DNA of 47,686 nucleotides, from positions 1 to 47,686 of IMG/VR virus record IMGVR_UViG_3300021962_000182; one strand, written 5' to 3'. Below, piece by piece: positions 121 to 40,845 of the stretch. Below the pieces are notes generated by a model, which saw only the letters and a list, made by a program, of their open reading frames with translations, did not search any database and was not told the origin of the DNA. The position numbers were made by a program, and so were the translations under genes. Positions within the stretch are counted from its first letter, which is position 1; each line of letters opens with the position of its first letter. The DNA comes from a virus.

Positions 121-543
121 ATGAAAGCAGAAGAACTTAAAAAAACTTTAAGACCTCTTGTCAAAGCCCTAGTCAAAGAAGCGATGCAAGAGGAACTATC
201 CACAGTAATAAGTGAGATAATAAAACAAACAGCAGGGTCAACACCAATAGTAGAACGTAAACAACCTACTATAGATCCAAAATTACAACAAGAAAGAATG
301 ATTGCTAAACAAAAAGCAGAATCCGAAAGAAAGAAAATGCTTGAAGACATTAGCAAAAAATCTTATGGTGGTATAAATATATTTGAAGGAACAACTCCTT
401 TAGCTAGAGGTGGCGAGATAAGCGAAAGCAAAGCCTCAGCACCTTCAGCAGCAGATCCTCTTGCTGGCGTAGATCCTCATGATCCAGGCGTTGATATTGG
501 AGGTCTTCTTAAACTTACAGGTGGTTGGAAGCAAATAAGATGA
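121..543 (+). CDS. Small structural-type protein, unknown function
   Basis: 140 residues, not recognised. The first 40 residues are a charged amphipathic helix rich in Lys and Glu. A Lys/Glu/Gln-rich, probably coiled-coil segment covers about residues 55-85, and an Ala/Ser/Gly/Pro-rich tail with several Asp residues ends in a Trp-Lys-Gln sequence. There is no membrane segment. A GGTG about ten bases before the ATG can serve as ribosome binding site, and a candidate late promoter and terminators lie upstream. It overlaps the next gene in an ATGA arrangement, so the two are translationally coupled. Position at the head of a virion operon suggests a late protein, perhaps prohead core or another virion component; this is inferred from position only. 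Confidence 0.75.
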   Translation: MKAEELKKTLRPLVKALVKEAMQEELSTVISEIIKQTAGSTPIVERKQPTIDPKLQQERMIAKQKAESERKKMLEDISKKSYGGINIFEGTTPLARGGEISESKASAPSAADPLAGVDPHDPGVDIGGLLKLTGGWKQIR

Positions 544-1463
544 AAAGATTAACAGAAATACAAGTTAGAGAAGTTATAAGAGAAGAAATTAAATCTTATT
601 TATTTGAACAAGATGAAAGTTTTTTTAATAAATATCATAAAGTAACAACTCCTGCTGGTATTGCTTTGTTAGGAATTTTAGCTGGAACAACTTACAATCC
701 AGAAGCACAAGCAACTGAAGAAGTTTATGATACTAGTGGTTTAGAACAATTACAAGGTCTTATTGATGATACTGAACAAAAATTAGTAAGTATGGGTGTT
801 GTCGATCAATATGCTCAAAATTTAATTTCTAGAACTGTTGAATATGGAAACATAGCATTTGAAAAAGAAGTTTCTAAAAAAGGAATTAAAGATCAAGATA
901 GACCAGAAGAATATGAAGAGTTTATGTTGAAAAGATTTCAAGAACTACAAGATCCAGAAAATCTTTCAAAAGTAGCAGCACAAGATTTTCTTACACAAGC
1001 ACAATCTGTTGGAACACATCAAATTATGTCTGCTCAAATAAATCCACAAACTGGTGAAACAAGTGTTGTTTCACCAGTACCAGCTTATTCTTTACAAGTT
1101 GCTTTTGCTAATGAAATGTTAAATGTTGTTACTGAAGAAGAAAAACAAAATCAAAATGTCTATACTAATTTGATTGTTAAATCATTTGATAAAGATTCAA
1201 ATGCTTATGTAGTACAACCAACTATTCTTCCATTTTTTCAACAAGTGGCAGAGAAGGGTTCACCATTTCAAGCAGCTATATTGGATGTAATACCACAAGT
1301 AAGTGTTGCTGCTTCTATATTTGAAGAAGAACAGAACAATAATGCTATGGAAGAAATAAACAAACAAGTAGGTGCTCAAGTTAAAAATAAAAAGTCAATT
1401 GAAGAAAATAAAGTTAATAAATTAAGACAAAGAATAAACGAATTGAGAGGTGTTTATGTCTAA
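540..1463 (+). CDS. Hypothetical virion-type protein with N-terminal RExIREE helix
   Basis: 307 residues from the ATG at 540, which overlaps the previous stop as ATGA; an earlier in-frame TTG at 525 is less likely. The N-terminus is a charged helix (RLTEIQVREVIREEIKSYL) followed by LFEQDE. L-F-E is a possible T4 gp21-type (I/L-x-E) cleavage site. A short hydrophobic stretch at about residues 37-48 is followed by a Gln/Glu-rich, mostly helical body and a basic coiled-coil C-terminus. No enzymatic motif was recognised. A similar Arg/Ile/Glu helix closes the protein at 31915. A virion or internal head protein is plausible but unproven. Confidence 0.7.
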   Translation: MKRLTEIQVREVIREEIKSYLFEQDESFFNKYHKVTTPAGIALLGILAGTTYNPEAQATEEVYDTSGLEQLQGLIDDTEQKLVSMGVVDQYAQNLISRTVEYGNIAFEKEVSKKGIKDQDRPEEYEEFMLKRFQELQDPENLSKVAAQDFLTQAQSVGTHQIMSAQINPQTGETSVVSPVPAYSLQVAFANEMLNVVTEEEKQNQNVYTNLIVKSFDKDSNAYVVQPTILPFFQQVAEKGSPFQAAILDVIPQVSVAASIFEEEQNNNAMEEINKQVGAQVKNKKSIEENKVNKLRQRINELRGVYV

Positions 1464-6881: not shown

Positions 6882-6889
6882 GATAACAA

Positions 6890-11216: not shown

Positions 11217-12245
11217 ATGTCTTCTTTGTTAGAACAAGCAATTATAGATGCCACAGCATTAAAAGAAGCTGCACTTAAAAATGCAGAAGCACAAGTATTA
11301 GAAAGATACTCAACTGAAGTAAAAGACGCAATTAAAAATTTATTAGAACAAGATGAAGGCTTTAATTCTCCTGTTGCATCCGAAGGTGGAACTTCTGGCA
11401 TTAATGGCGGAAATGTTGGCGATCAAATGACACAAGCTTACAAAGATGGACAAAAGATGTGCGCTTGCCCAGACGAAGAAGAAATAGTAACAATTGATCT
11501 AACATTAGGTGAGATTGATGGAATGGCAAAAGAATCTAATATTGATTTATCTGGTAACAAAGGTTCCGCTATGTCCCGTGATCAATTTATACAATCACAA
11601 GCAGCACAACTTCAAGAAGGCGAACAATACGAGATTGATAAAGCAGAACTTTTAGATCTCTATGAGAAACTTACAGTTGATGCCAGAGTTGTTCCATATG
11701 GTAATATTGAATATCCAGCTAACACACTTGAAGTTGAATATGCCAAAGATGTAGCAGCAGCAAAAAGAGCACAACTTGAAGCTGAGGAACAAACAATAGA
11801 AGTTAAAAATGAAAATAAAAAACTTCAAAGCAATTATAAGAATTTACAAGTTGAATACAAAAAACTTGAAAAGATTACTGAAGCACTCGCAAATAAAGTA
11901 GAACAATACGAGAGCGCAGTATCACAATTAAAAGAGAATTTAGATAAGTTATCAGTAACAAATGCTAAACTTCTCTATACAAACCGCGTATTGAATAGTA
12001 ACTCCTTGAATGAGCGACAAAAAGATAAACTTGTCGAAGCACTATCCAACGCAAAAACAACAGACGAAGCAAAGACAATCTATCAAACACTTCAAAGCAC
12101 AGTGGGGGGTAATACAAAAGTATCTGCTCCAAAATCACTTAGCGAAGCCTTAAATAGACCTTCTTCATCTGTATTTCACACAAAGCAAAACGATACAGTA
12201 ACTCCAGAAGTGGATAGAATGCGTCGTTTGGCAGGTATTAAATAA
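11217..12245 (+). CDS. Prohead core scaffold protein, gp22-like
   Basis: 342 residues immediately upstream of the major capsid gene, the T4 gene 22 position. A helical N-terminus (about 1-50) contains L-x-E sites. An acidic stretch with CACPDEEE follows, then a long coiled coil from about residue 180 to 260, and the segment TNRVLNSNSLNERQKDKLVE near 260-280 that is characteristic of gp22-type scaffolds. The C-terminus is RMRRLAGIK. The protein forms the core around which gp23 assembles and is degraded by the prohead protease (gp21), which is not in the window. TTGGAG supplies the binding site. The low-hydrophobicity, high-Lys/Glu/Gln composition fits. Confidence 0.8.
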   Translation: MSSLLEQAIIDATALKEAALKNAEAQVLERYSTEVKDAIKNLLEQDEGFNSPVASEGGTSGINGGNVGDQMTQAYKDGQKMCACPDEEEIVTIDLTLGEIDGMAKESNIDLSGNKGSAMSRDQFIQSQAAQLQEGEQYEIDKAELLDLYEKLTVDARVVPYGNIEYPANTLEVEYAKDVAAAKRAQLEAEEQTIEVKNENKKLQSNYKNLQVEYKKLEKITEALANKVEQYESAVSQLKENLDKLSVTNAKLLYTNRVLNSNSLNERQKDKLVEALSNAKTTDEAKTIYQTLQSTVGGNTKVSAPKSLSEALNRPSSSVFHTKQNDTVTPEVDRMRRLAGIK

Positions 12246-12269: not shown

Positions 12270-14048
12270 ATGTCTATTATCGAAAGATTAACAGAGGGCA
12301 TGGTTCAACGTGACCTCGCAAAAGAAGGCTCAGCTCTTCTTTCAAAATGGGAAAAAACAGGTCTTCTTGAAGGTATGTCCTCAGAGAGAGCAAAACACAC
12401 TATGGCTCGTCTTCTTGAGAACCAAGCAAAAGAGCTTCTTCGCGAATCTTCAGCTATGGCTGCTGGTGACGTAGAAGGTTTTGCTGCCGTAGCATTCCCA
12501 ATCGTCCGCAGAGTATTCGCTGGTCTTATCGCCAACGATCTCGTTAGCGTTCAACCTATGTCACTTCCATCTGGTCTTATCTTCTTCCTTGATTTTAAGA
12601 TTTCATCAACTGCTGGTTCTGGTCCAAGATTAGGATACGAGGCTGGTGATTCAGTTTATGGTCAAGGCGTTCTCGGTCAACAAATCACTGGTGGTGTTAG
12701 CTTAACTGGTCTTAATGCTGAAAAAGGTTTCTACAACCTTAATAACGGTTACACTTCACCAACAGGTTCCGTACTTCTTGGTGCATTAGGTGTAGTTGCA
12801 TCTGGTACATTTGGCGATACAACTCTTGATAGCTGGGTTCGTTATGATGCAGACTTTACTTCTGGTTCAACTAAAATTGCAGTTGTCTCAGCAAGCTTAG
12901 CAGCCTTTACACAACTTAATGTAAAAGATTTCGTTGCAATCACATTAGTTGGTCCTACTCCAAACTTAACTGGTTCAAACAGCACACGTTTGGTCAGAAG
13001 ATTAACTAAATTGGGTGATGGTTCCGTAATCGGAACAACCGCTTTGGGTGCTGCTCAACACACTACTGCTACATCAAACTTATACTTTGTATTCGCTTCT
13101 GATACTGCTACTAACGGTGCTGCTGTCAAATCAGACTTGACAATTGGTGCTGGTGCAACTATGCAATTCCCAATAACTGATGGTTTCGGTACAACTAACA
13201 TAGCTGCTGGTTCAACTAACGCCCTTGGTGCAATCGCTGGTCAAAACACATGGGGTTTTGAATCACAAACAGCAATCCCAGAGATTGATATCTCCGTCGA
13301 TTCAGTATCAATCACCGCTATCACCAAGAAAATGAAAGCAAAATGGACACCAGAATTGGGTCAAGACCTTAATGCTTATCACAATCTTGATGCAGAGGTT
13401 GAGCTTACCTCAATTCTTTCAGAACAAATCGGTCTTGAAATTGACCGTGAAATTCTTGAAGACCTTATCAAAGGTGCAACTGCTGGAACATTCTATTGGT
13501 CAAGATCACCAGGTCTTTTCGTCAATAGATTAACTGGTGCCGAAATTGGTGCATCAGCTAAGGCTCCAGACTTCACTGGTACTGTCTCAGCTTGGTACGA
13601 AACCTTAATTGAAACAGTAAACGATGTATCAGCTCAAATCCACAGAAAGACACTTCGCGGTGGTGCAAACTTCCTCGTATGTGGTCCAGAAACCGCTAAC
13701 ATTCTTGAGTTCACTTCTGGCTTCAGAGCTAAAGTAACTCACGAAGACGAGAAAGGCGAGGTCGGTGTTGTTAACGTTGGTTCAATCTCCAAGAAATGGG
13801 ATATCTACGTTGATCCATACTTCCTTCGTAACGTAATCCTCGTTGGTCGTAAGGGTAGCTCATTCCTCGAAAGCGGATATGTATATGCACCATACGTCCC
13901 ACTCCAAGTAACTCCAACCATCTTTGGTACTGAGGACTTCGTTCCACGTAAAGGCGTCATGACACGTTACGCCAAGAAAATGGTCAAGCCAGACCTTTAC
14001 GGTTTGGTAATCATTCGTGGTATGTTTGGCGAGTCTGGCGGCGTCTGA
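12270..14048 (+). CDS. Major capsid protein gp23
   Basis: 592 residues. The segment AAVAFPIVRRVFAGLIANDL followed by VSVQPMSLPSGLIFFLDF (about 71-108) is the gp23 signature. About 25 residues before it, L-R-E at 57-59 followed by Ser is a likely prohead protease site, matching the position of T4 processing. The C-terminal third (EIDISVDSVSITAITKKMKAKWTPELGQDL, about 345) is also well conserved in the family. Length exceeds T4 (521). AAGGAG lies ten bases upstream. Codon choice is visibly richer in C-ending codons than in neighbours, as expected for the most abundant protein. It folds probably with the GroES-like cochaperonin encoded at 44968. Confidence 0.95.
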   Translation: MSIIERLTEGMVQRDLAKEGSALLSKWEKTGLLEGMSSERAKHTMARLLENQAKELLRESSAMAAGDVEGFAAVAFPIVRRVFAGLIANDLVSVQPMSLPSGLIFFLDFKISSTAGSGPRLGYEAGDSVYGQGVLGQQITGGVSLTGLNAEKGFYNLNNGYTSPTGSVLLGALGVVASGTFGDTTLDSWVRYDADFTSGSTKIAVVSASLAAFTQLNVKDFVAITLVGPTPNLTGSNSTRLVRRLTKLGDGSVIGTTALGAAQHTTATSNLYFVFASDTATNGAAVKSDLTIGAGATMQFPITDGFGTTNIAAGSTNALGAIAGQNTWGFESQTAIPEIDISVDSVSITAITKKMKAKWTPELGQDLNAYHNLDAEVELTSILSEQIGLEIDREILEDLIKGATAGTFYWSRSPGLFVNRLTGAEIGASAKAPDFTGTVSAWYETLIETVNDVSAQIHRKTLRGGANFLVCGPETANILEFTSGFRAKVTHEDEKGEVGVVNVGSISKKWDIYVDPYFLRNVILVGRKGSSFLESGYVYAPYVPLQVTPTIFGTEDFVPRKGVMTRYAKKMVKPDLYGLVIIRGMFGESGGV

Positions 14049-22443: not shown

Positions 22444-22454
22444 TAAAGATAGAT

Positions 22455-22464: not shown

Positions 22465-22477
22465 TTGAGGTTTATGT

Positions 22478-22804
22478 ATGTCCAAAGAAATAGTCCCAAT
22501 TCACATCGACTTTACAAATACAAACCAGTTGAATGAATCATTCCTAGAAATGTTTGGTTCAACTGTGAAGCTTATTCTTCAGCGTATGTTTGGACAAGAT
22601 GTATTTTTACCTCCTGTTTCTGTAACTGGCGATAGATACCAAGTTGAATCCTTTGCTAGAGCTTTGGCTAGTGAAAGGAGATATTTTGATTCATATGTTA
22701 GATATGGTCTTAATGATCCAAGAACATATAGAAATAAATATGAACTTGACGCATCTGTTTCTAAATTTGAGAATAGTACAGGCTTAAAGTGGCCGTTTAA
22801 ATAA
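22478..22804 (+). CDS. Small conserved protein upstream of tape measure
   Basis: 108 residues, predicted mostly helical. The C-terminal half (DRYQVESFARALASERRYFD, YGLNDPRTYRNKYELD, FENSTGLKWPFK) is a pattern I associate with a small protein of marine T4-like phages found near the tape measure. There is no metal-binding or catalytic motif. GAGG eight bases upstream is the binding site. It may be a further tail assembly factor; the length and sequence do not match T4 gp25. Confidence 0.65.
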   Translation: MSKEIVPIHIDFTNTNQLNESFLEMFGSTVKLILQRMFGQDVFLPPVSVTGDRYQVESFARALASERRYFDSYVRYGLNDPRTYRNKYELDASVSKFENSTGLKWPFK

Positions 22805-22817
22805 GGAATTATAATAA

Positions 22818-25229: not shown

Positions 25230-25248
25230 ATATAAATAAGGATCAAAA

Positions 25249-26106: not shown

Positions 26107-26110
26107 CTAA

Positions 26111-26452
26111 ATGGCTTCAAGATATAGTGGAAATATAACAAGAAATACAAACACCTCAAATGGTGAATCTCTAAAAGAAGTAATTGAATCAAGAGGATTT
26201 AGTTCAATTACTCACTATAGAATTAATAATTTAAAATACCCATCAGTAGAACAAATAGAAAATTTAACAATTATTAAACACGTTTGGAAGTCTAATGATA
26301 GGTATTGGAAGTTATCAGAAAGGTACTATGGAGATCCAAAATATTGGTGGATTATTGCTTGGTTTAATAAAAAACCCATAGAAGCAACATTAACTTTAGG
26401 TGAGTATGTTTCAATACCACAACCCTTATCCGACGTATTAGGAATGATCTAA
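26111..26452 (+). CDS. Baseplate wedge protein, gp53-like
   Basis: 113 residues. The C-terminal half, HVWKSNDRYWKLSERYYGDP followed by KYWWIIAWFNKKP and GEYVSIPQPL, is the signature of the gp53 family, a LysM-like domain that clamps the baseplate wedges together. T4 gp53 is 196 residues, so this is a short version lacking N-terminal extensions. It begins four bases after the previous stop and overlaps the next start by one base (TAATG). Confidence 0.7.
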   Translation: MASRYSGNITRNTNTSNGESLKEVIESRGFSSITHYRINNLKYPSVEQIENLTIIKHVWKSNDRYWKLSERYYGDPKYWWIIAWFNKKPIEATLTLGEYVSIPQPLSDVLGMI

Positions 26453-29187: not shown

Positions 29188-29195
29188 GGATTTAA

Positions 29196-30380: not shown

Positions 30381-30387
30381 GGTCTAA

Positions 30388-31533: not shown

Positions 31534-31542
31534 CTATTTATG
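31533..31542 (+). promoter_or_regulatory. Candidate late promoter (ACTATTTATG)
   Basis: Nine of ten bases match; it begins on the last base of the polymerase stop and lies 16 bases before the Dps-like ATG, with AAAGAGG between. It would place the next genes, including the tagged phosphatase-like protein, under late control. Confidence 0.5.
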
Positions 31543-31558
31543 GAAAGAGGTATCTGAA

Positions 31559-31915
31559 ATGGAACAAATTGTCATGCAACTCGTCCAGATGGAACAACAA
31601 ATGCGTATCTTCCACTGGCAAACTAAATCATTCGCTAGACACTCAGCGTTTGGTGGAATCTATGGAACACTTGGAGATCTAATAGATACCTTTGCTGAAA
31701 CTTGGATGGGTAAGAATGGAAGAGTTCGCGTTGCTGGACCTATTGACCTTCAAGATATTGGTGGAGATGTAGAAGGTATTGTAGACGGGTATATAAATAC
31801 TCTTGTTGGCTTTACCGATATACTTGATCCACAAAAAGATACAGACCTTCTAAACATTCGTGATGAAATTTTAGGAGAGTTCAATAAACTCAAATACCTT
31901 CTCACCCTTAAATAA
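31559..31915 (+). CDS. Dps/ferritin-like small helical protein
   Basis: 118 residues. Residues 15-52 (MRIFHWQTKSFARHSAFGGIYGTLGDLIDTFAETWMG) carry the H-W-x-T...H...D...E spacing of the first Dps/ferritin helices, the pattern of a small phage family related to Dps. True Dps is about 160 residues, so only part of the four-helix bundle may be present. Possible roles are DNA binding or iron binding; neither is demonstrated. It overlaps the next start by one base (TAATGG). An ACTATTTATG motif precedes it. Confidence 0.75.
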   Translation: MEQIVMQLVQMEQQMRIFHWQTKSFARHSAFGGIYGTLGDLIDTFAETWMGKNGRVRVAGPIDLQDIGGDVEGIVDGYINTLVGFTDILDPQKDTDLLNIRDEILGEFNKLKYLLTLK

Positions 31916-32820
31916 TGGATAAGATACTTCAAAATTGGGATAAATTCCTAAACGAGCAAACAGAGCCTTACCAAAGAAAGATGAAGGCAAAACATTCTCG
32001 TTTAAAGAAAAGAGTTATAGGTCATGGAGGTCAAAAAGCTGGTCCTCCGTATACTCAAAAGCCTTCTATGGAACGTTCTAAATCTGCTCCTCCTATGGGA
32101 GAAGGTCTTGATGAAGGATTTATGGATTTCTTTAGAAAGAAGAAACCAGAAGAACAACCAAAAGAAAAACAACCAGTTACAATTCCTCCTTATACAGATT
32201 ATAACCAAATAGGAAATACTAATATATACGTTGGAAGATTTCCTATGCAAAAGGGTAGCGATGATAATAGGGTATTTCAACCAGATGTATTGGAAAAATT
32301 TGATAAAATATTCTTAGTTGCAGATGAAGAAGTAGATTTCTTAAAATCAAAGCAACCAGATATACTTGGTGATACGCAAGACAATAAAGAAAATAAAATT
32401 GTTGCTACTGAAAAGAGGATTGATGATAAAGCTAATCCAAATAAAGAACAACTTGATTATATGGAAGAATTAGCCTTAAAAGCAAGCAAAACAGAGGGTA
32501 ACGTTTTAATTGCCTGTAGTGCTGGTAAAAATCGTTCATCAGCTATAGCAGCAAGAGCAATAGCCTTAAAACAAGGTGGAGTTAAAAGCGATCAAGATTT
32601 AGATAATATCGTCAATATGATAAGAAGCGCAAGAGGACCAAGTGCTTTAGCTTATACTCACAGGCACATGGTAGGGTCAGTAGACAAAAATAAGCCACCT
32701 CAACATGATGCTTTTATAAACTTTATTAAGAATGGTCCAACTTCTACCCTTGAAGAAAGTTTGAGAAGAGTTATAAGAAGATTGATCAGAGAACAACATG
32801 GAAGAAAACGATACACCTAA
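31915..32820 (+). CDS. Phosphatase-like protein with putative capsid-targeting tag
   Basis: 301 residues. The N-terminus MDKILQNWDKFLNE resembles T4 capsid-targeting sequences such as MKTYQEFIAE of IPIII, ending in a prohead-protease-like L-N-E site. Residues 20-60 are basic and Pro/Ser-rich. A domain of about 100-260 has NIYVGRFPMQ at its start and the loop CSAGKNRSS at 201-209, matching CX5R(S/T) of tyrosine/dual-specificity phosphatases with Cys 201 and Arg 207; a candidate general-acid Asp lies in the preceding region but was not assigned. The C-terminus is an amphipathic Arg/Ile/Glu helix. Packaged phosphatase injected with DNA is the working hypothesis. Confidence 0.75.
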   Translation: MDKILQNWDKFLNEQTEPYQRKMKAKHSRLKKRVIGHGGQKAGPPYTQKPSMERSKSAPPMGEGLDEGFMDFFRKKKPEEQPKEKQPVTIPPYTDYNQIGNTNIYVGRFPMQKGSDDNRVFQPDVLEKFDKIFLVADEEVDFLKSKQPDILGDTQDNKENKIVATEKRIDDKANPNKEQLDYMEELALKASKTEGNVLIACSAGKNRSSAIAARAIALKQGGVKSDQDLDNIVNMIRSARGPSALAYTHRHMVGSVDKNKPPQHDAFINFIKNGPTSTLEESLRRVIRRLIREQHGRKRYT

Positions 32821-33202
32821 TTCAGTATTAGTTATAGTTCAAAAGGGTAACAAAATCCTTGTAGTAGAAAGATCTAAAACTGATCAGTGGATGCCTCTTC
32901 ACTGGTCATATCCAGGGGGTCATATTCAAAAGGATGAAACTCCTTATTATGCTGCAAAGAGAGAACTTGAAGAAGAAACTGGTCTTAAACCAAAAACAGT
33001 AGTTTATACTGGTATTCGTGATACTGCTAGTGGTAAAATGTATATCTATCTTTGTGATGAATTTGATGGTGATGTAGAACTAAACTTTGAACATTCAAAA
33101 CACAAATGGATTACTTATGATGAAATTGAAGATCTAAAAAAGAAAACACCATTTATGAAGCAAATTGCTGCTACTGCACTTGGTATTCCTATGGGGTATT
33201 AA
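32798..33202 (+). CDS. Nudix hydrolase
   Basis: 134 residues. The Nudix box GX5EX7REUXEEXGU is complete: Gly 41, Glu 47, and REL-EEETGL at 55-63, within GGHIQKDETPYYAAKREL. Residues 8-25 form the first beta strands of the fold. It hydrolyses a nucleoside diphosphate linked to another group; candidates include oxidised dNTPs, NADH, ADP-ribose and capped RNA, and the sequence does not select one. Starts 23 bases inside the phosphatase gene, with AGAGAACAAC upstream. ATG at 32798 is preferred by the conserved N-terminus. Confidence 0.92.
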   Translation: MEENDTPNSVLVIVQKGNKILVVERSKTDQWMPLHWSYPGGHIQKDETPYYAAKRELEEETGLKPKTVVYTGIRDTASGKMYIYLCDEFDGDVELNFEHSKHKWITYDEIEDLKKKTPFMKQIAATALGIPMGY

Positions 33203-34008
33203 TGAATATAATTGGCCTTGGTAAAACAGGTTGTGGAATAGCTCAAAAGTTTAGCAAATACCCACAATATAAAATATTCAAACTATCTATTGAAGAAGGA
33301 ACTATTGATGAACAATCAACACCAGAAGAATATGAGAGCAAAACAAGCCTCGCTCCTTTTGCTCTGGACGGTCCTATTGATTTTATTTTAGGTGGTGATG
33401 AAACTATTATCGCTGCTTCCCTAAAAATATTGGAGGGTTACAAAGACCATGAGATCAGAATCATATATATTAGACCTTCTCAACGTTTCACTACAGGACT
33501 TCAAAGAGCAACAGATAAGGTTGTATTTAACGTATTACAAGAGTATACACGTTCTAACAAATTTAGCTCTTTCTATGTAATCAGTTATGAAATGGTAGCT
33601 AAGATGGTTGGCAAGATTCCAATTGTTGGTTACTACGATAAACTTAATCAAGTTATAGCAGATACAATCCATATGCTTAATTATCTCGATCATATTGAAG
33701 GAGCTATGGATACCTTTATGGATATGTCACCAACATATTGCCTAAAAACGATTGGCTTAATGGATATGAACTCTGGAACAGAAAGTTTATTTTATGATCT
33801 TGACGATGTAAGAGACAAGAGATACTATTACTCCATCAACGACGAACAACTAAACAACGATGGTGATTTGTTCGATAGTATAAACGAACAAATAGAAGAA
33901 AAAATAACAGACCTTGCTAAAGCGATGTTTGGTGTTTATTCTTCTCAATACAAAGACAATTATTGTTATGTCGTTTATTCCTCTCCACATATACAAGGTG
34001 TAAAGTGA
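33202..34008 (+). CDS. Unknown protein with tubulin/FtsZ-like sequence pattern
   Basis: 268 residues. It opens with a beta strand and glycine loop (NIIGLGKTGCGIAQKF), then FILGGDETIIAASLKIL at about 60-76, a strand IRIIYIRPS, and a long helix ending SSFYVISYEMVAKMVG. The order resembles the FtsZ/tubulin GTPase half: glycine loop, glycine-rich T4 loop, strand, helix, then a second strand. The signature GGGTGTG is, however, degenerate here (GGDETI), so GTP binding is doubtful; a Rossmann-type nucleotide-binding fold is an alternative. One-base overlap with Nudix (TAATG). Confidence 0.7.
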   Translation: MNIIGLGKTGCGIAQKFSKYPQYKIFKLSIEEGTIDEQSTPEEYESKTSLAPFALDGPIDFILGGDETIIAASLKILEGYKDHEIRIIYIRPSQRFTTGLQRATDKVVFNVLQEYTRSNKFSSFYVISYEMVAKMVGKIPIVGYYDKLNQVIADTIHMLNYLDHIEGAMDTFMDMSPTYCLKTIGLMDMNSGTESLFYDLDDVRDKRYYYSINDEQLNNDGDLFDSINEQIEEKITDLAKAMFGVYSSQYKDNYCYVVYSSPHIQGVK

Positions 34009-34361
34009 ACCCAATTATAGTTAGAAATTCCAAGATACCAAAGCTAATGAGTTTAGTAATAGATGTATATGCTATTACCCTTTTCCCGTTTATCTTTGTT
34101 GAAGATGATGGAAATTGGGTTACAATTAATCACGAAAGTATACACATTAAACAACAAGCAGAATTATTTGTAATACCTTTTTATATACTTTACGGTTATC
34201 AGTGGTTAATGAACCGACTTAAAGGTATGAATGGTGAACAAGCTTACTACAATATTCAATTTGAATTAGAAGCTTACCAAAATCAAACTGATCAAAACTA
34301 TCTCCAAAACAGAAAAAGAATGGCTTGGAGAGATTATAAACAAGAAGAGAAGATATCATGA
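34005..34361 (+). CDS. HESIH-motif protein, metallopeptidase-like
   Basis: 118 residues if it starts at GTG 34005, which overlaps the previous stop as GTGA; AAGG lies six bases before it. An ATG at 33963 would put 14 extra residues inside the preceding gene and looks less natural. HESIH near residue 47 fits HExxH, followed by QQAELFVIPFYILYGYQW (a probable membrane-associated helix) and NIQFELEAYQNQ, a pattern known from small proteins of bacteria and phages. The second Glu, in FELEAY, could be the third metal ligand. Peptidase activity is not established. Confidence 0.75.
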   Translation: MNPIIVRNSKIPKLMSLVIDVYAITLFPFIFVEDDGNWVTINHESIHIKQQAELFVIPFYILYGYQWLMNRLKGMNGEQAYYNIQFELEAYQNQTDQNYLQNRKRMAWRDYKQEEKIS

Positions 34362-34609
34362 AATCTTTTACAGGAACATTTTTGAAGAAAGACGGAAGTT
34401 CAAGAACCATGAGCTTTGTTAAGGTAAAGGACTTGCCAGAAGCTTTCTTTGATGGTAAGGTTAAAGGGACAGGGAAGCCAAGAACTCTGGCGGAAGGGTC
34501 CGAAATGGTTTATGATTTGGATGCTAAGGAATTTCGTATCTTCAATCATAATACAGTCGTCGGTAACATTATCGAAATGGAACTTGACGATGATTTGCTA
34601 GTAGGTTAG
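34358..34609 (+). CDS. Small beta-barrel protein, WYL_2/DUF2693-like
   Basis: 83 residues. FTGTFLKKDGSSRTMSFVKV followed by VYDLDAKEFRIFNHNTVVG is the strand pattern of the small SH3-like family found in many T4-like phages. The function is unknown; small basic barrels of this kind often bind nucleic acid or partner proteins. It overlaps the previous stop as ATGA. The promoter for gp32 lies in its last 26 bases. Confidence 0.7.
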   Translation: MKSFTGTFLKKDGSSRTMSFVKVKDLPEAFFDGKVKGTGKPRTLAEGSEMVYDLDAKEFRIFNHNTVVGNIIEMELDDDLLVG

Positions 34610-34612
34610 AAT
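34584..34612 (+). promoter_or_regulatory. Sigma70-like promoter of gp32
   Basis: TTGACG (34584-34589), exactly 17 bases, TAGAAT (34607-34612). Transcription should begin near 34619, so the RNA would open almost directly with the hairpin at 34623-34646. Confidence 0.65.
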
Positions 34613-34622
34613 GATAACATGG

Positions 34623-34646
34623 CGGTTGAAGAGATTTGTTCAACCG
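34623..34646 (+). promoter_or_regulatory. 5'-end hairpin in the gp32 leader
   Basis: CGGTTGAA pairs perfectly with TTCAACCG around an eight-base loop. An unstructured A-rich leader then holds the binding site AGGAG (34661-34665) before the ATG at 34673. T4 gene 32 mRNA also starts with a folded element (a pseudoknot) before an unstructured leader that binds gp32. I do not see a strong pseudoknot partner here. A terminator is the alternative reading. Confidence 0.6.
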
Positions 34647-34672
34647 TTCTTAAAACAACAAGGAGTATTAAA

Positions 34673-35461
34673 ATGGCACTAGATATGAGCAAAATGAAGA
34701 ACAAGCTTGAGAAGCTTGCTAATAACGGTAAGGAAAGCAATAATTCTGTTAAATGGAAAATGGAAGAGGGTCAACACTCTGTTCGTATTGTTCCAACTGA
34801 TGATGGTGATCCATTCAAGGAGCTTTATTTCCACTACAAGGTTGGTGGTAAAACAGTTCTTTGCCCCAAAAAGAACTTCAACGATGAATGCCCTGTCTGT
34901 AACTTCGCTTCCCAACTTTGGAAGGAAGGAACTGCTAATGAAGACAAGTCAAGCCAGAAAATGGCTAAGGAACTCTTCCCCAAGCAGCGTTTTATGTCTC
35001 CTGTTCTAGTCCGTGGTGAGGAGGCTAAGGGTGTTCAAGTATGGGAATACGGTAAGCGTGCCTATGAGACGATGATTGGTCTTGTTCTCAATCCAGAATA
35101 CGGAGATATCACCGATCCACAAGACGGTCTTGATCTTGTAATTGATTACTCTAAGCCACCTGTAGGAGCTAAGGATCAATTCCCAGAGACAAAGATCACT
35201 CCTCGTCGTAAATCCTCCCCACTTTGTTCTCCAGAATACGGTGGTCCAGCAAAGTGTAAAGAAATCCTCGATACTATCCCAGATTTCTCCAAGCTTTATC
35301 CTCGTCAAACCACACAAGAAGTCCAAAAGGTTCTTGATGCCGCACTTGCTACCGATGAAAGTGCAGAGGAAGAGTCCAAAGAGGTAGTCCGCGAAGGCAA
35401 AGCCAAGAAAGCAAAAGGCGCAGAAGCAGTAGACGACGCCTTTAATGAATTTGCTGGTTAA
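34673..35461 (+). CDS. Single-stranded DNA-binding protein gp32
   Basis: 262 residues from ATG 34673, with AGGAG before it; the longer in-frame start at 34619 lies at the leader hairpin. His 54, Cys 64, Cys 73 and Cys 76 (in ECPVC) reproduce the H-C-C-C zinc site of T4 gp32. A basic N-terminus (KMKNKLEKL) serves cooperativity, and the acidic tail (about 225-262, DESAEEESKEVV through EAVDDAFNEFAG) contacts replication proteins. It coats single-stranded DNA in replication, recombination and repair. Codon use is biased to C-ending codons, indicating high expression. A terminator follows; the gene has its own promoter and a structured leader. Confidence 0.93.
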   Translation: MALDMSKMKNKLEKLANNGKESNNSVKWKMEEGQHSVRIVPTDDGDPFKELYFHYKVGGKTVLCPKKNFNDECPVCNFASQLWKEGTANEDKSSQKMAKELFPKQRFMSPVLVRGEEAKGVQVWEYGKRAYETMIGLVLNPEYGDITDPQDGLDLVIDYSKPPVGAKDQFPETKITPRRKSSPLCSPEYGGPAKCKEILDTIPDFSKLYPRQTTQEVQKVLDAALATDESAEEESKEVVREGKAKKAKGAEAVDDAFNEFAG

Positions 35462-35473
35462 TCTACACTAACT

Positions 35474-35509
35474 GAGCGGGTGTATCTTTCGGGGTATGCC
35501 CGCTCTTTT
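35474..35509 (+). terminator. Rho-independent terminator after gp32
   Basis: GAGCGGGTGTA pairs with TATGCCCGCTC (11 pairs, two wobbles) around a ten-base loop and continues into TTTT. Confidence 0.88.
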
Positions 35510-35527
35510 CATATACAAAGGAACAAA

Positions 35528-36673
35528 ATGGCTAAAAAAACAACGACTCAAACAACGACAAATGGTAAATTATCAATAGCTCAATTAAAAGATATGATTA
35601 ACAAAAAAGCTGGTGCTGAAGTAGCATTTAATCTTGTTGATGATAACCCAACAAACGTAACAGAATGGATACCAACAGGTTCACGCTGGCTTGATTCAAT
35701 TATTTGTAAAGGTAAATTAGCTGGAATTCCTGTAGGTAAAATTGTAGAGATTGCTGGTCTTGAAGCTTCTGGTAAATCATATATGGCTGCTCAAATTGCG
35801 GCTAATGCTCAAAAGATGGGCTTTAATGTTATTTACTTTGACTCCGAATCTGCTCTTGACTCTCAATTCTTGGCTAATGCTGGATGCGATGTTGGTCAGC
35901 TTCTATATGTTCAAGCTCAATCGGTAGAGTTTGTTCTTGAAACTATCGAAACAACCCTAAATGAAAGAACCCTTTATATTTGGGACTCACTCGCTTTAAC
36001 CCCAGCAAACGCAGACCTTGAAGGTGACTTTAATCCTCAATCTTCTATGGCTCAAAAACCTCGTATTCTTTCAAAAGGAATGTCGAAGTTAGTTCAGCCT
36101 ATTGCTAATGCTCACTCAACGGTTATAGTGTTGAACCAGCTTAAAACGAACATCACCAGCACGCCCGCAGAAGCCCTTGTAGAGCCTTATTTCACACCAG
36201 GAGGCAAAGCACTACCTTATGCTTATTCGCTCCGTATATGGCTTACAGGGCGTAAATCAAAGGCATCCTATGTTACGGACGAGAAGGGTTTTAGGATTGG
36301 TTCAGAAGTAAAAGCAAGATTAAAGAAATCTCGTTTTGGGACAGAAGGTAGAGAATGTACTTTCAAAATCTTATGGGGTGGTGAAGATATTTCTATCCAA
36401 GATGAAGAATCATGGTTAGAAGCAATTAAGTCCTCTCCTCACTTTGAACAAGCTGGTGCATGGTCCTCAATTGTTTATGAAGATGGAACAAAAGAGAAAT
36501 TCCAAGCTGCTATGTGGAACGAGAAGCTACAAAGTCCAAAGTTTAGGTCAAGAGTTCTTGAAATTATGGATAAAGAATTGATTAAGAACTTTGAAACAAA
36601 AGAAGGTCACGCATCAAATTATTATAATATTGATGGTGAAGGACCAGACGATATAGACGCAGAAGTAGAATAA
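35528..36673 (+). CDS. uvsX: UvsX/RecA-family recombinase
   Basis: 381 residues from ATG 35528, with AAAGGA eight bases upstream; the ATG-less extension to 35480 lies within the terminator. Walker A is GLEASGKS (77-84). Walker B is in RTLYIWDSLAL, near 150. VIVLNQLKTNI near 205 is the L2-proximal segment. It forms filaments on single-stranded DNA and drives strand invasion in recombination-dependent replication, working with gp32 just upstream. It matches T4 UvsX in length (391) and in motif order. No clear promoter of its own was found, so expression may depend on read-through past the gp32 terminator. Confidence 0.93.
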   Translation: MAKKTTTQTTTNGKLSIAQLKDMINKKAGAEVAFNLVDDNPTNVTEWIPTGSRWLDSIICKGKLAGIPVGKIVEIAGLEASGKSYMAAQIAANAQKMGFNVIYFDSESALDSQFLANAGCDVGQLLYVQAQSVEFVLETIETTLNERTLYIWDSLALTPANADLEGDFNPQSSMAQKPRILSKGMSKLVQPIANAHSTVIVLNQLKTNITSTPAEALVEPYFTPGGKALPYAYSLRIWLTGRKSKASYVTDEKGFRIGSEVKARLKKSRFGTEGRECTFKILWGGEDISIQDEESWLEAIKSSPHFEQAGAWSSIVYEDGTKEKFQAAMWNEKLQSPKFRSRVLEIMDKELIKNFETKEGHASNYYNIDGEGPDDIDAEVE

Positions 36674-36677
36674 AACA

Positions 36678-36713
36678 AAGGCTTCCTAGGGGTTGACGCT
36701 CTTAGGAAGCCTT
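36678..36713 (+). promoter_or_regulatory. Hairpin overlapping the promoter after uvsX
   Basis: AAGGCTTCCTA pairs perfectly with TAGGAAGCCTT around a 14-base loop that contains the -35 hexamer TTGACG. There is no following T tract (GTTACT), so this is a poor intrinsic terminator; it may instead be an operator or an RNA 3' end for uvsX. Confidence 0.6.
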
Positions 36714-36721
36714 GTTACTAT
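36693..36721 (+). promoter_or_regulatory. Sigma70-like promoter of the deaminase gene
   Basis: TTGACG, 17 bases, TACTAT. The spacer is mostly the right arm of the hairpin at 36678-36713. The predicted start lies about 17 bases before the ATG at 36745. Confidence 0.6.
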
Positions 36722-36744
36722 CTTGGTGTTGGAGATTGAACATC

Positions 36745-37161
36745 ATGGAGTCGGACCCGAAGTTGTCTAAGAAGAAGCAGCGGTTTATTGACCTTGCCGC
36801 ACGAATCGCACAGCAGACCGAGTTTAAGGAATACAAGCATGGTGCCGTTCTTGTTCGTGCTGGAGCCGTTCTAAATACCTCTTGTAACAAGAACAAGTAT
36901 AAGGCATGGGCAAATCAGTTTCGTAAGAAGCAGCGTGGTCATGCTACTGTTCATGCTGAGATTGGTGCTATTCTTGGTCTTGATCGTTCTGTGACTGAGG
37001 GTGCTACCATTTATGTTGTTCGCGTTGGAAAGTGTGGAGATCTGAAGAACTCTAAGCCTTGTCCGATGTGCGAAGCTGCTATGCAGTATGTGGGCATCAA
37101 GAAGGTTGTTTATTCCTCCGAAGATGGTAAGATTGAAACTATGAGGATTTATAATGAGTGA
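36745..37161 (+). CDS. Deoxycytidylate/cytidine deaminase-family protein
   Basis: 138 residues. The zinc-dependent deaminase signature is complete: H70-A71-E72 and P105-C106-P107-M108-C109 (HAEIGA and PCPMC). It would convert dCMP to dUMP, feeding ThyX in the same region. The length and the absence of a regulatory insert leave cytidine or another substrate open, but the phage context favours dCMP deaminase. GGAG is ten bases upstream. The in-frame start at 36712 would place the start in the promoter. It ends in an eight-base overlap with the next ATG. Confidence 0.85.
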   Translation: MESDPKLSKKKQRFIDLAARIAQQTEFKEYKHGAVLVRAGAVLNTSCNKNKYKAWANQFRKKQRGHATVHAEIGAILGLDRSVTEGATIYVVRVGKCGDLKNSKPCPMCEAAMQYVGIKKVVYSSEDGKIETMRIYNE

Positions 37162-37483
37162 GAATAAAATTACCTATAGTGCTATATACCAACCCTACCT
37201 TGATTACAATAATCCTTGGGAAAGAGCCAAAGAGGGTTGTTGGATAATCAGAAAGAAAGATGGGACAACTTCTACTCGCCGTCTTACAGAAGAAGAAATG
37301 GTAGAAGGACTAGAACAAGTTCATTATGCTATGGCTGTTAGTTGTGATATAATGATGAACAAGATGTTGGACCTTCAAAATAGTGGTCGCTCTTTGTCTA
37401 TTAGTGATATTGTTCTTGAAACTATTAACGCTGTTGGAAGCGAAATCAAAAGGAGAAAAAATGAACCAAATATGGGAAACTGA
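37154..37483 (+). CDS. Small hypothetical protein, overlaps deaminase
   Basis: 109 residues, mixed alpha-beta, with a Trp/Arg-containing start (WERAKEGCWIIRKKDGTTSTRRLTEEE) and a helical centre. Its start overlaps the deaminase stop by eight bases and its end overlaps the next gene by 23 bases, so it is translated as part of the same message. No family was recognised. Confidence 0.6.
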   Translation: MSENKITYSAIYQPYLDYNNPWERAKEGCWIIRKKDGTTSTRRLTEEEMVEGLEQVHYAMAVSCDIMMNKMLDLQNSGRSLSISDIVLETINAVGSEIKRRKNEPNMGN

Positions 37484-37832
37484 AATTACCAATAAGTATC
37501 CAAAGACCTTCGCTCGCCTTTCTTACTTTGAGTGTTCTGGCGGTTGGAAAGACCTTATTGCTGAAATCGCAGAGGTTAGCGAGAAGTATAATAATACTCA
37601 AGTAAATAGCGATTATCATATTACGGCAGCACAAGTTAAGGAAAAGTTTGGAGGACTTAGGTTCTATATTGATAGCGGCGAGGAATGTCCGCATGAAGTT
37701 TATCTGGAAATCTCCAATCTTATTGCCGAAGTAGAAAATAGGTCTTATAAAATTTGTGAGGTTTGTGGAGAAGAGGCCCAAAAGAGGCGCGAAAGGTCTT
37801 GGGTTAAAACTCTGTGCGATAAACATGCTTAA
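37461..37832 (+). CDS. Hypothetical protein with C-terminal zinc-ribbon-type Cys
   Basis: 123 residues from ATG 37461, preceded by AAAGGAG; the in-frame start at 37383 is internal to the previous gene. The centre holds ITAAQVKEKFGGLRFYID, a pattern of a widespread family of small phage and bacterial proteins of unknown role, followed by ICEVCGEEAQKRR and TLCDKH, four metal-type ligands (two Cys, then Cys/His). Confidence 0.7.
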   Translation: MNQIWETEITNKYPKTFARLSYFECSGGWKDLIAEIAEVSEKYNNTQVNSDYHITAAQVKEKFGGLRFYIDSGEECPHEVYLEISNLIAEVENRSYKICEVCGEEAQKRRERSWVKTLCDKHA

Positions 37833-38046
37833 TGTGGGCGATTTAGTATGGGTTAATAAATTTAGTCCATCATTTAGCTCACACCTATTAGCGGATACTC
37901 CAATAGGGCAACAAACCTTATTTAGAGAGTATTCGCTTTTAGGTATTGTTATGGAAATTTATCCAGATATTTATTGTGTTTATCTTACCGAAGCCCAAAG
38001 TTACAAATATTTATATAAGGAGGATGTTATTAAATGCCAAGATTGA
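37825..38046 (+). CDS. Small beta-rich hypothetical protein
   Basis: 73 residues if initiated at ATG 37825, eight bases before the previous stop; the ATG at 37756 lies inside the preceding gene. The sequence MLNVGDLVWVNKF followed by a hydrophobic beta pattern is that of a small SH3-like barrel. It overlaps the exonuclease start by 13 bases. Unknown function. Confidence 0.55.
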   Translation: MLNVGDLVWVNKFSPSFSSHLLADTPIGQQTLFREYSLLGIVMEIYPDIYCVYLTEAQSYKYLYKEDVIKCQD

Positions 38047-38996
38047 TGATTGTAGATGCTCTTAATATGTTCATTAGAGCATACATTACAAATCCTACCC
38101 TATCTCCAAATGGACAACCAGTTGGAGGTGTAGTTGGCACGATTAATATTCTTCAAAAGCTTATTAAACAAACTCAACCAGACCAAATTATTATTTGTTG
38201 GGATGGTGAGAATGGCTCTAAAAAGCGAAAGAGTATGAATTCTAACTATAAAGAAGGTCGTAATCCTATTCGTCTTAATCGTGATGTAAGAAATCTAGAC
38301 GAGAACCAAGAACTTGAGAATAAAATCTGGCAACAAACAAGATTGGCTGAATATTTTAATAACTTTCCAATCATTCAGTTTATGTATCCTAATATTGAGG
38401 CAGATGATTTAATTTCTTATGTTGCTACCCATTCTCATTATAGAGATTGGCAGAAAGTAATTGTATCCTCAGACAAAGATTTTATACAACTTGTTAACGA
38501 TAAAACAATTCTTTTTAGACCTATTCAAGAACAAATCTTAACTACCAAAAAAGTATTAACAGAATTTGGTGTTCATCCTAACAATTTTGCTTTAGCTAGG
38601 GCTGTTGCTGGTGATGCTTCCGACAATCTTAAAGGTGTTGGAGGAGTAGGAATGAAAACACTTTCTAAGCGTGTTCCTCTTCTTCAATTAAGTGAATTCT
38701 GCACGGTTGATAAACTTGTTGAGTATTGTGCTAATCAAGATCAAAAGATTAAATGTTTTACTTCAATCGCATCAAGCCGTGAGGCGATTAGCGACAATTA
38801 TCGCCTCATGCAACTAGCGACTCCACATATCTCTCCACAAGTTAGAAGTCATATGAATGAAACATTAGAAACCTTCCAACCAGAACTAAACCAATTAGAG
38901 TTTAAAAAGATGTCTATACAAGATGGTTTTGGAACTGTAGATCATTCATATTTGATTACAGCTATGAAGAAATTTGTCGCTAATGGCACTATTTAG
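38034..38996 (+). CDS. 5'-3' exonuclease / flap endonuclease-family protein
   Basis: 320 residues of the FEN/T5-exonuclease family. Catalytic metal ligands are seen in order: D8 (LMIVDALN), CWDGENGSKKR near 57, NIEADDL near 120, and SSDKDFIQL near 143. GDASDNLKGVGGVGMKT near 198 is the helix-hairpin-helix DNA-binding segment. T4 RNase H has the same role in removing RNA primers and flaps (305 residues). AAGGAGG lies nine bases upstream. It is a partner for the exonuclease-free polymerase encoded at 30388, which lacks a 5' nuclease domain. Confidence 0.88.
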   Translation: MPRLMIVDALNMFIRAYITNPTLSPNGQPVGGVVGTINILQKLIKQTQPDQIIICWDGENGSKKRKSMNSNYKEGRNPIRLNRDVRNLDENQELENKIWQQTRLAEYFNNFPIIQFMYPNIEADDLISYVATHSHYRDWQKVIVSSDKDFIQLVNDKTILFRPIQEQILTTKKVLTEFGVHPNNFALARAVAGDASDNLKGVGGVGMKTLSKRVPLLQLSEFCTVDKLVEYCANQDQKIKCFTSIASSREAISDNYRLMQLATPHISPQVRSHMNETLETFQPELNQLEFKKMSIQDGFGTVDHSYLITAMKKFVANGTI

Positions 38997-38997
38997 G
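38988..38997 (+). promoter_or_regulatory. Weak copy of the late motif (ACTATTTAGG)
   Basis: Eight of ten bases match and it overlaps the exonuclease stop; it ends two bases before the ATG at 39000, much as at 5935. It could allow separate late expression of the tagged protein at 39000. Chance is not excluded. Confidence 0.25.
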
Positions 38998-38999
38998 GT

Positions 39000-39746
39000 A
39001 TGCAACAAAAATTAATACTAGAGAACTGGCGTAAATTTCTTAAAGAAGAAGTTGAGGGCTTAGACTTAGTTAAGCAAGAAACTGAAGAAAGTTTAGAAGA
39101 TACATCAACCACCAAAGCTCAACCAACAGTTCAGCAACAACAACAAACTATTGAAGATACTATAATTGGAAATTTAGAAAACGATCTAAATAAAGCTAAA
39201 CAAACAGCAGAATCAGAAGGTATTAATAAATCAGAACTTCAAAATGCTATACTTGATAAAGTAAAAGAAATTCTTAAAGAATCAAAAAAGAAAAAGAAAA
39301 AGAAATCTGGTGACCGTTGCACAAGAATAGCAAAACGTAAATATGATGTTTGGCCTTCTGCTTATGCTTCTGGAGCCGTTGTAAAGTGTCGTCAAGGAAA
39401 GATTTGGAAAGGCGTAAGCGAAAATGCCTCCGATCAAGAAATTGACGACGCTTTATTACTAGAAGAAGTAGAAATTATTGAAGAAGCTAAAAAAAAAGCT
39501 TATAAACCAAACTTCTCAAAAGAAAAAGAGCAAGGTCTTCACGGATGGTTTGCTCGTAACGATGGAAAAGGTTGGGTAAATTGTAGAACTGGTGGTCCAT
39601 GTGGAAGAGATAATGCCGATAAAGGTGGTAAATACCCAGCTTGTAGACCAACAAAAGCACAGTGTAAATCTGCTGGTAAAGGACCATTAAGAAAAAAGAA
39701 ATCTTCTTCTCCTATCTCATGGACGAAAAAGAAAAAGAAGGACTAA
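39000..39746 (+). CDS. Tagged protein with Cys-rich basic domains (putative capsid cargo)
   Basis: 248 residues. The N-terminus MQQKLILENWRKFLKE has the W-x-x-F-L-x-E tag and ends in an L-K-E site. A Gln/Thr-rich linker and helices follow to about 90, then a Lys run (KKKKKKK). The middle (RCTRIAKRKYDVWPSAYASG, VKCRQGKIW) and the end (GLHGWFARNDGKGWVNCRTG, YPACRPTKAQCKSAGKGP) are two Cys/Gly/Lys-rich domains of a type recurrent in marine and algal viruses, with function unknown. The domains look nucleic-acid-binding by charge. A capsid-packaged protein is inferred from the tag. Confidence 0.7.
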   Translation: MQQKLILENWRKFLKEEVEGLDLVKQETEESLEDTSTTKAQPTVQQQQQTIEDTIIGNLENDLNKAKQTAESEGINKSELQNAILDKVKEILKESKKKKKKKSGDRCTRIAKRKYDVWPSAYASGAVVKCRQGKIWKGVSENASDQEIDDALLLEEVEIIEEAKKKAYKPNFSKEKEQGLHGWFARNDGKGWVNCRTGGPCGRDNADKGGKYPACRPTKAQCKSAGKGPLRKKKSSSPISWTKKKKKD

Positions 39747-39753
39747 TTAAAAC

Positions 39754-40845
39754 ATGACTAAATATTCATCATTTAACCAACAACAACTAATAACTGAAAG
39801 TTGGAGAGCGTTTCTTATCGAACAAGAACAAACTCAACCACAGCAACCACAGCAACTACAAAATCAACAAAATAATCAAAATCCTGTAAAACAACCTAAT
39901 ATATTACAGTTAGTTACAGCATCAAATACTAAATTAAAGGTTACCCAACCAGGACCATCAAACAAAACAAAAGAACAACTCAATAATCAACAAAATATTA
40001 ATAATTTAAAAACATTACTTAATAAAAAAGATTACAAAGGTTTTCTAGAAGCTTTTACAAAAATTCTTAACACTGATCCAAATAGTGGTGATAGAGAAGA
40101 AGTAATAAATAATGCAAATTTATTGTTTAATAAAGGAAGAACTTATAATTTTAAAAAATCAGATAATCCAAAAACATATACAAGAAAAGCTCAAATAAAT
40201 GAAAAACAATATGGACCAATAGCTTCTACTATAGAAGGAGGTTTTTCTTTAGCTAAAAAAGGTTTGCTAAATTTAGGCGACGGAGATATTGAAGCAGGTT
40301 TAAAAAAGTTTGTAGGTGCCTCAGCAACTATGGTATTAAGTAGCATGATAATTTCAAATGTAGTTAATATGCTTCAAAAAGCAGATCCTACAGATTTACA
40401 AGACACTTTACAATTAATAGATCATTTAAAAAATTCATTATCAATATCAAATCCAGCACAATTAGTCAAAATGTTTCAAACAGTACAAACTGCCAAAGGA
40501 ATATCAGAAAGTAGTTTATACGATGATGCCCATTTAGATGATGGAACTCTTGTTTGCCCACAGTGTTTGCAAGAGTTACTTGAAAATGATACAGGAATTC
40601 TTCAAGAAGCTAAATATCAAGGTAAAACAGTTACACTTAACAAGCCCATGAAAGGTGATGTTAAGAAATCAAAAGTTTATGTAAAGAACGAAAAAGGTAA
40701 TGTTGTAAAAGTAAACTTTGGCGACAAGAATATGAAGATTAAAAAGAATATTCCAGCAAGACGTAAATCTTTTAGAGCACGCCACAACTGTGAAAACCCA
40801 GGACCAAAGACCAAAGCTCGTTATTGGTCTTGTAAAGCTTGGTAG
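39754..40845 (+). CDS. Tagged protein with conserved C-terminal basic domain (putative capsid cargo)
   Basis: 363 residues. The N-terminus reads QQLITESWRAFLIEQ at about 10-24, the third copy of the W-x-x-F-L-x-E tag, ending in L-I-E; T4 Alt begins with a similar LITE string. A Gln/Asn-rich linker extends to about 75, then helical regions. At 260-300 is VCPQCLQELLE with a CxxC pair. The last 65 residues, VYVKNEKGNVVKVNFGDKN and RRKSFRARHNCENPGPKTKA then RYWSCKAW, form a domain found repeatedly in marine phage proteins. Follows the previous gene after seven bases. Confidence 0.7.
   Translation: MTKYSSFNQQQLITESWRAFLIEQEQTQPQQPQQLQNQQNNQNPVKQPNILQLVTASNTKLKVTQPGPSNKTKEQLNNQQNINNLKTLLNKKDYKGFLEAFTKILNTDPNSGDREEVINNANLLFNKGRTYNFKKSDNPKTYTRKAQINEKQYGPIASTIEGGFSLAKKGLLNLGDGDIEAGLKKFVGASATMVLSSMIISNVVNMLQKADPTDLQDTLQLIDHLKNSLSISNPAQLVKMFQTVQTAKGISESSLYDDAHLDDGTLVCPQCLQELLENDTGILQEAKYQGKTVTLNKPMKGDVKKSKVYVKNEKGNVVKVNFGDKNMKIKKNIPARRKSFRARHNCENPGPKTKARYWSCKAW

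Follow-up and report, generated by a model that had tools for sequence, protein, structure and literature searches.

Tryptophan-based N-terminal tags on unrelated proteins of uncultured T4-like phages are probable capsid-targeting propeptides

A shared N-terminal motif, W-x-x-F-L-x-E, was found on three proteins (31915, 39000 and 39754) encoded by a 47,686-base viral fragment (IMG/VR record IMGVR_UViG_3300021962_000182), referred to here as the window, in which 49 genes were counted. The same pattern, an aliphatic-aromatic half LxENWxxF followed by [LI]-x-E, recurs on scores of unrelated proteins from phages in which every long tagged contig among the matches listed carries gp21, and these W tags are very probably capsid-targeting propeptides. 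The tagged proteins would probably also be injected into the host, a claim made with less confidence and based on the T4 precedent and the domains of the cargo. The window phage is an uncultured T4-like phage, and its major capsid protein is of the gp23 type (Pfam PF07068, Gp23, 2.1e-69), a feature of membership in that group. The initial annotation had read the three N-termini as T4-like capsid-targeting tags, each ending in an (I/L)-x-E-type site and each preceding a linker and an unrelated domain. All three starts and the motif were confirmed, the tags end in LNE (31915), LKE (39000) and LIE (39754), and the mature parts, a phosphatase and two proteins of PHROG families without function, are unrelated to one another. 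The spacing of the tags and the gp21 genes and tags of relatives support that reading. Its count of three tags stands; the scale was understated, at least 85 protein families being tagged, and a second tag type, present in the window at 525, had been missed.

In the T4 record, IPII and IPIII start with MKTYQEFIAE and gp61.1 with MKTFKEFIKE. According to the part of PMC9026906 drawn on here, targeting by the IPIII tag depends on residues 4 and 7 and processing on residues 8 and 10, gp21 cuts after L/I-x-E, and the IPIII tag alone loads a foreign protein. In the tags described here, W, F, L and E coincide with these four mapped positions, so that the T4 analogy first drawn for them (a MKTYQEFIAE-type tag, (I/L)-x-E and gp21) is exact in its spacing. 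Both an aromatic residue and Phe, at -6 and -3 from the predicted cut Glu, and the closing [LI]-x-E, features of T4-type targeting and cleavage respectively, were found in all three window tags.

The strength of the motif beyond the window was assessed in 160 related loci, because it had been defined post hoc from the three window tags and independent support must therefore come from the N-terminal bias in relatives. For the 49 window genes, 0.03 tagged N-termini are expected from background and 3 were observed (Poisson P ~5.5e-6). Among 2,056 open reading frames (ORFs) of the related loci, the pattern W..[FY][ILVM].E has 32 matches, 25 of them within the first 40 residues. Stricter de-duplication of the same loci (1,889 ORFs, each with a different 60-residue C-terminal end) leaves 22 matches in the 75,560 aa that make up the first 40 residues and 7 in the other 423,290 aa. 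W-tagged genes number 7 of 235 in G003, 7 of 227 in G041, 10 of 206 in G022, 5 of 189 in G033 and 11 of 237 in G036, and the motif occurs past residue 40 3, 2, 4, 0 and 0 times in these records, respectively; the W-tag match at 17249 in G022 resembles chance. Codon position 3 is the least conserved in the tags (0.55 vs 0.72 and 0.84), which argues for selection on the peptide. This bears on the idea that domain shuffling or a repeated DNA element left the shared N-termini behind, without function in the protein. Tagged genes are indeed grouped in tandem in G041 (2363-10151) and G022 (22410-33232), suggestive of duplication and recombination, but conservation at the protein level alongside codon variety (161 in-register tags encoded in 154 distinct ways), across at least 85 families, makes such an origin exceedingly unlikely.

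Tagged proteins were collected by scanning the DNA of viral contigs for tags that begin at a start codon (at least 120 stretches, 80 loci among the matches listed), and also from the first relatives and from whole contigs. The collection of at least 197 distinct proteins is thus no census, since it was partly fetched by the tag itself. With the first 25 residues removed, single-linkage BLASTP at 1e-3 divides it into at least 85 families, 25 with two or more members and 60 singletons; ORFs were called mechanically (longest first, overlap up to 30%), and some singletons are possibly truncated at contig ends. Two alignments of 43 and 41 representatives, covering 84 of the 85 families with one omitted, have W8 and E14 as their only invariant columns, as they must because the selection pattern demanded both, and nothing in common past the tag. 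M1 is conserved at 90% in both, and K2, E6 and N7 also reach 90% in the set of 41. Attachment to unrelated mature proteins is a further feature of a T4-type capsid-targeting sequence. At most 16 of the 84 representatives have any Pfam match; Pfam and PHROG matches are reported here at 1e-3, some of them below Pfam's own cut-off. The set of 43 includes NUDIX, protein kinase, AAA_33 (polynucleotide kinase type), nucleotidyltransferase, ParB_N, tRNA-ligase phosphodiesterase (2), DUF192 and four others, and the set of 41 S-adenosylmethionine (SAM) lyase (2), ART-PolyVal and amidase; a nucleotidase of the deoxyribonucleotidase family is also tagged. Such domains are of kinds known to be injected (compare T4 Alt and IPI), and the cargo of kinase, phosphatase, ADP-ribosyltransferase (ART), SAM lyase, nudix, nucleotidase and amidase suggests early host take-over and defence against restriction. 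PADLOC matches among the 43 representatives were not taken as defence systems and may reflect kinase or methylase domains only. PD-T4-6 is, we presume, a kinase.

Among 188 tags picked by the part up to W alone, F/Y follows at +3 in 179, L/I at +4 in 165 and E at +6 in 164, frequencies inflated by the tag scan that fetched part of the set; with the 86 scan-pattern matches removed, the counts are 93, 80 and 78 of 102. Of the 188, 27 are off-register, and 26 of these have [LIVMF]-x-E within W+3..W+13, as compared with a mean of 11.5 and a maximum of 21 when their residues are shuffled (20,000 trials). For strict [LI]-x-E, the count is 18 of 27 against a shuffle mean of 6.9 and a maximum of 16 (5,000 trials). 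This is the most telling of the internal tests, and it is unaffected by selection because the scan pattern admits no off-register tag. Since off-register tags keep the hydrophobic-x-Glu, the docking element and the cleavage element vary separately from each other, the behaviour that a propeptide of two parts should show. The result also bears on whether the tag merely docks proteins on the scaffold or capsid during assembly and stays uncut, the tagged proteins being assembly factors and not injected cargo. Some head-block genes near gp21 do carry tags, of the second type in G003 and of the W type in G036, and the PHROG family named minor head protein is matched by one of the 43 tagged representatives. 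Docking alone, however, does not explain a hydrophobic-x-Glu that is kept despite a shift of register, and kinase, ART, SAM-lyase and nudix domains are improbable in assembly factors, so that we consider this explanation unlikely.

The search for gp21 and for further tags proposed in the initial annotation could draw only on relatives, the window being a fragment that has no gp21, and was positive there. The gene is present in 12 of 33 contigs picked from the related set, tagged or untagged, in 9 of 22 tagged contigs, and in all 7 tagged contigs of at least 180 kb among the matches listed. A tagged gene follows directly on gp21 in G036, beginning where gp21 ends, and a second is placed one gene ahead of gp21. 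The tag could instead send proteins elsewhere (to the tail, the membrane, a host partner or a replication compartment) or serve as a stability signal, and the helix that it forms in two low-confidence models (31915 and 39754) fits many roles. Both the agreement with the four mapped T4 positions and the gp21 genes of the seven long contigs speak against another destination, which we regard as very unlikely.

Several observations weigh against capsid targeting. Neither gp21 (Pfam S77) in the window fragment nor gp21 or gp23 in 13 of the 22 tagged contigs, all of 123.5 kb or less, could be found. No W tag is present in the gp21-positive G011 or in HTVC008M, Mel-JY01 and immuto. T4-like N-termini occur in genomes in which gp21 was not detected, of the MRAxQF[IL]xE / MRAxEFLxE type, in G019 (L355-L366; 9427, 11420, 12852 and 235599) and G008 (L348-L354; 32109 and 88565). 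The tagged class, unlike the T4 internal proteins, is not basic (median isoelectric point (pI) 5.3 vs 5.8 for all genes). Finally, the L431 nucleotidase has no tag, and in the 39754 family L017 and L018 are without the Glu and L019 is without the W tag.

For the window, gp21 probably lies just outside the fragment. In G003, it is found ~12 kb upstream of gp23, and the window has 12.3 kb before gp23, starting with homologues of the genes that follow gp21 in G003. The gp21-less tagged contigs for their part look like fragments, because four of the 13 (first 80-120 kb) have 25-55 genes in common with one gp21-positive tagged genome; the same four have at most 7 in common with T4, HTVC008M or gp21-negative records. 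UvsX-like and sheath searches of the 13 gave 0 of 13 each, with a sheath query that did match G019. A further set, G018, G019 and G008, was chosen for the phrog_7595 domain, not at random. It has a W tag in 0 of 751 genes, and neither Pfam nor a profile built on 11 gp21 sequences detected gp21 in it. Its use as a clean negative control for tags in general was rejected since G019 and G008 carry other short N-termini; an association with gp21 is claimed for the W tag only. The MRAx N-termini of G019 and G008 may be T4-like tags used with another protease. Basic charge, tried as a hallmark of cargo, failed for the tagged class, though the three window proteins are basic (mature pI 9.6 for 31915, 9.3 for 39000 and 9.6 for 39754).

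Homologues with and without the tag were compared for two families. The deoxyribonucleotidase family, some loci of which were fetched because of the tag, has it in 7 of 8 members of W-tagged-lineage contigs, one off-register, the eighth being the untagged L431. The nucleotidases of HTVC008M, Melnitz and immuto have an N-terminal extension of 17-24 residues with a hydrophobic-x-E site, those of Atu_ph07, Phosso and RBC57 have 3 to 7 residues at that place, that of phiM5 is part of a longer fusion, and those of L020 and L022, on contigs without detected gp21, start with MKTKEFLTE. In the 39754 family, F replaces W in several members, and L019 starts with a peptide resembling the second tag. Judged by these N-termini, the homologue pattern is consistent, not uniform. 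Among cultured phages, a 22-residue tagged N-terminus run against 50,697 phage records gave one match (E = 4), which is weak evidence of absence because so short a query is insensitive; phosphatase and tagged-kinase queries had no match in cultured phage records.

A capsid-targeting propeptide of this kind could work in three steps. The prohead scaffold would bind the aromatic half, perhaps where it also receives the similar LLxKW stretch in the propeptide of gp23; gp21 would then cut after the Glu; and the freed protein would stay in the head with the DNA, to be injected at infection. The propeptide of gp23 in the window and its L-R-E cut site are themselves predicted. Its stretch (LLSKWEKTGLLEG), like those of T4 (LLNKWKPLLEGE), HTVC008M (LQEKWSPVLNH) and S-SSM7 (LTEKWAPLLDHE), resembles the tag LLENWRKFLNE. 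The gp23 list was filtered on the KW motif (78 of 80 loci pass, L118 and L121 fail), so conservation of LLxKW is unproven and the resemblance suggestive only; a docking surface on the scaffold common to the cargo tag and the capsid propeptide is a tentative proposal from sequence likeness.

The coordinates of the window features are collected in Table 1. On its sequence, the 31915 product is a protein tyrosine phosphatase (PTP)/dual-specificity phosphatase with a C-x5-R loop in a PTP fold: its PF00102 match exceeds the Pfam cut-off, the loop CSAGKNR is identical in the window and three relatives, and the best PDB matches of a low-confidence model (mean predicted local distance difference test (pLDDT) score 53) are PTP folds. 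Differences in tag 1 among the same four proteins are confined to residues 7, 9 and 10. In the model of 39754 (mean pLDDT 57, likewise of low confidence), tag 3 forms a helix at 7-26; the two models were used solely for the phosphatase fold and the helical tag. The 39000 and 39754 products have Lys/Cys-rich segments at the C-terminal end, and PHROG families without function are their sole Pfam or PHROG matches at 1e-3. The phosphatase end (32749-32796) is LEESLRRVIRRLIREQ, kept in the three relatives and similar to the second tag, as if signals stood at both ends. In G003 (2218-3585, L408), the phosphatase homologue with its tag continues in frame from an upstream stretch that is 2H phosphoesterase-like by eye, either a fusion or a second start. 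The 118-residue ORF at 31559-31915, which overlaps the start of tagged protein 1, we take by eye to be ferritin/Dps-like.

Table 1. Tagged proteins, head genes and related features of the window
Feature	Position	Strand	Basis
Second-tag protein, MKRLTEIQVREVIREEIKSYLFEQ; ORF at 525, start taken at internal ATG	540..1463	+	Second-tag census
Scaffold-like (gp22-position) protein ending RMRRLAGIK	11217..12245	+	Position directly upstream of gp23
Major capsid protein gp23 with N-terminal propeptide, predicted gp21 cut after LLRE-59	12270..14048	+	PF07068 2.1e-69; LLRE via comparison with relatives
Tag 1, MDKILQNWDKFLNE; predicted cut after E14	31915..31956	+	Sequence
Mature tagged protein 1: basic linker and predicted PTP/dual-specificity phosphatase domain	31957..32820	+	PF00102 4.7e-5, phrog_10650 8.9e-11
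C-x5-R phosphatase loop CSAGKNR, residues 201-207	32515..32535	+	Sequence
Tag 2, MQQKLILENWRKFLKE; predicted cut after E16	39000..39047	+	Sequence
Mature tagged protein 2: acidic linker, Lys/Cys-rich C-terminal segments	39048..39746	+	phrog_727 1.7e-7
Tag 3, MTKYSSFNQQQLITESWRAFLIE; predicted cut after E23	39754..39822	+	Sequence
Mature tagged protein 3: Q/N-rich linker, helical middle, basic C-terminal domain	39823..40845	+	phrog_7595 3.1e-13

The scaffold-like protein has no Pfam or PHROG match, and a C-terminus like its own was seen in five related contigs and two isolates. The C-terminal motif, R(M/W)xxLAGIK (12216-12242), recurs in similar form at the end of the window ORF 21676-22443 (IRRWKVLANIK, 22408-22440) and of the W-tagged protein that adjoins gp21 in G036 (123980-125050). 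This type of C-terminus is perhaps a C-terminal loading signal. Matches to the T4 late promoter TATAAATA in the window were uninformative (12 vs 6.6 expected, with 5 of 100 shuffles reaching 12).

The second tag, K[IL]T...L..IIKEEL, is found on different proteins and often continues into a hydrophobic-L-x-E end (K[IL]T...L..IIKEEL..[LY]L.E). Of its 16 occurrences in G003, G041, G022 and G033, 15 fall within residues 1-25; in G036, no match is N-terminal and 2 lie elsewhere. Its carriers in G003 (L176-L185) are 77000, 154705, 155122 and 156293, three of the four close behind gp21, and G022 has seven such genes. In the cultured Flavobacterium phage immuto (MW353175; L399, L400 and L174; host Flavobacterium sp. 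LMO8), whose annotation includes a prohead protease, two other tag types were found. One, NFDLKKFLVENKLT, is on genes 1803, 103806, 117631, 118632 and 125241, the last a variant on the gene directly after the protease; the other, MKKSQLRxIIKE, is on genes 102294, 102880, 113188 and 123355. A broader idea, to which we give even odds, is that the heads of T4-like phages are filled by means of a common and interchangeable peptide code, written in lineage-specific N-terminal tag alphabets that mostly end in a protease site, with scores of host-attack enzymes as exchangeable cargo. Examples of such alphabets would be LLENWxxFLxE here, KITxxxLRxIIKEELxxxLxE, NFDLKKFLVEN in the cultured Flavobacterium phage and MKTYQEFIAE in T4.

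The principle of a capsid-targeting tag is known, and the window system would be a much expanded version of the one in T4, built on Trp. Like IPII and IPIII (IPI being degenerate), it uses a short N-terminal aromatic-x-x-F-[IL]-x-E of identical spacing on unrelated mature parts; T4 encodes gp21, and so do relatives of the window phage. Unlike them, it has Trp in place of Tyr/Phe, a preceding L-L-E-N block and many enzyme domains, with 5-11 tagged genes per record in five records, as opposed to three tag-like N-termini in 150 kb of T4 (IPII, IPIII and gp61.1; two further matches look like chance). The internal proteins of T4-even phages are described, in the portion of PMC3012670 cited here, as highly diverse defence proteins whose sole common feature is the capsid-targeting sequence. 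T4 Alt is likewise an injected, host-modifying ART in the sections cited from PMC9026906 and PMC5512222, and ART-PolyVal is one tagged family here; Alt itself starts off-motif with MELITELFDE, and the excerpt from PMC5512222 places the T4 ARTs in a family other than the polyvalent-protein ARTs. Polyvalent proteins have overlapping domains (ART, ParB-like and nudix), and many are predicted to be packaged and injected, but their domains are joined in one chain and no common short tag was found in that excerpt (PMC5512222). The propeptides of SPN3US and phiKZ are also N-terminal, cut after x-x-E by a prohead protease and proposed to target cargo; several exceed 100 residues, and the cut follows A-x-E in SPN3US and S/A/G-x-E in phiKZ, as far as the excerpted accounts go. 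For the Trp tag, its spread over scores of families and the second tag, no published description was found in the open-access literature, preprints apart, a result that speaks weakly for their novelty.

Should the tags act as proposed, the injected payload of a phage would be predictable from sequence alone, and a shared peptide code, if there is one, would let injected effectors be read directly from the genome. In uncultured T4-like phages, this payload would comprise kinases, phosphatases, ARTs, SAM lyases, nucleotidases and dozens of nameless families, and the tagged set would be a candidate list of anti-defence and take-over proteins. The tag may also act as a second, independent address for loading foreign proteins into phage heads.

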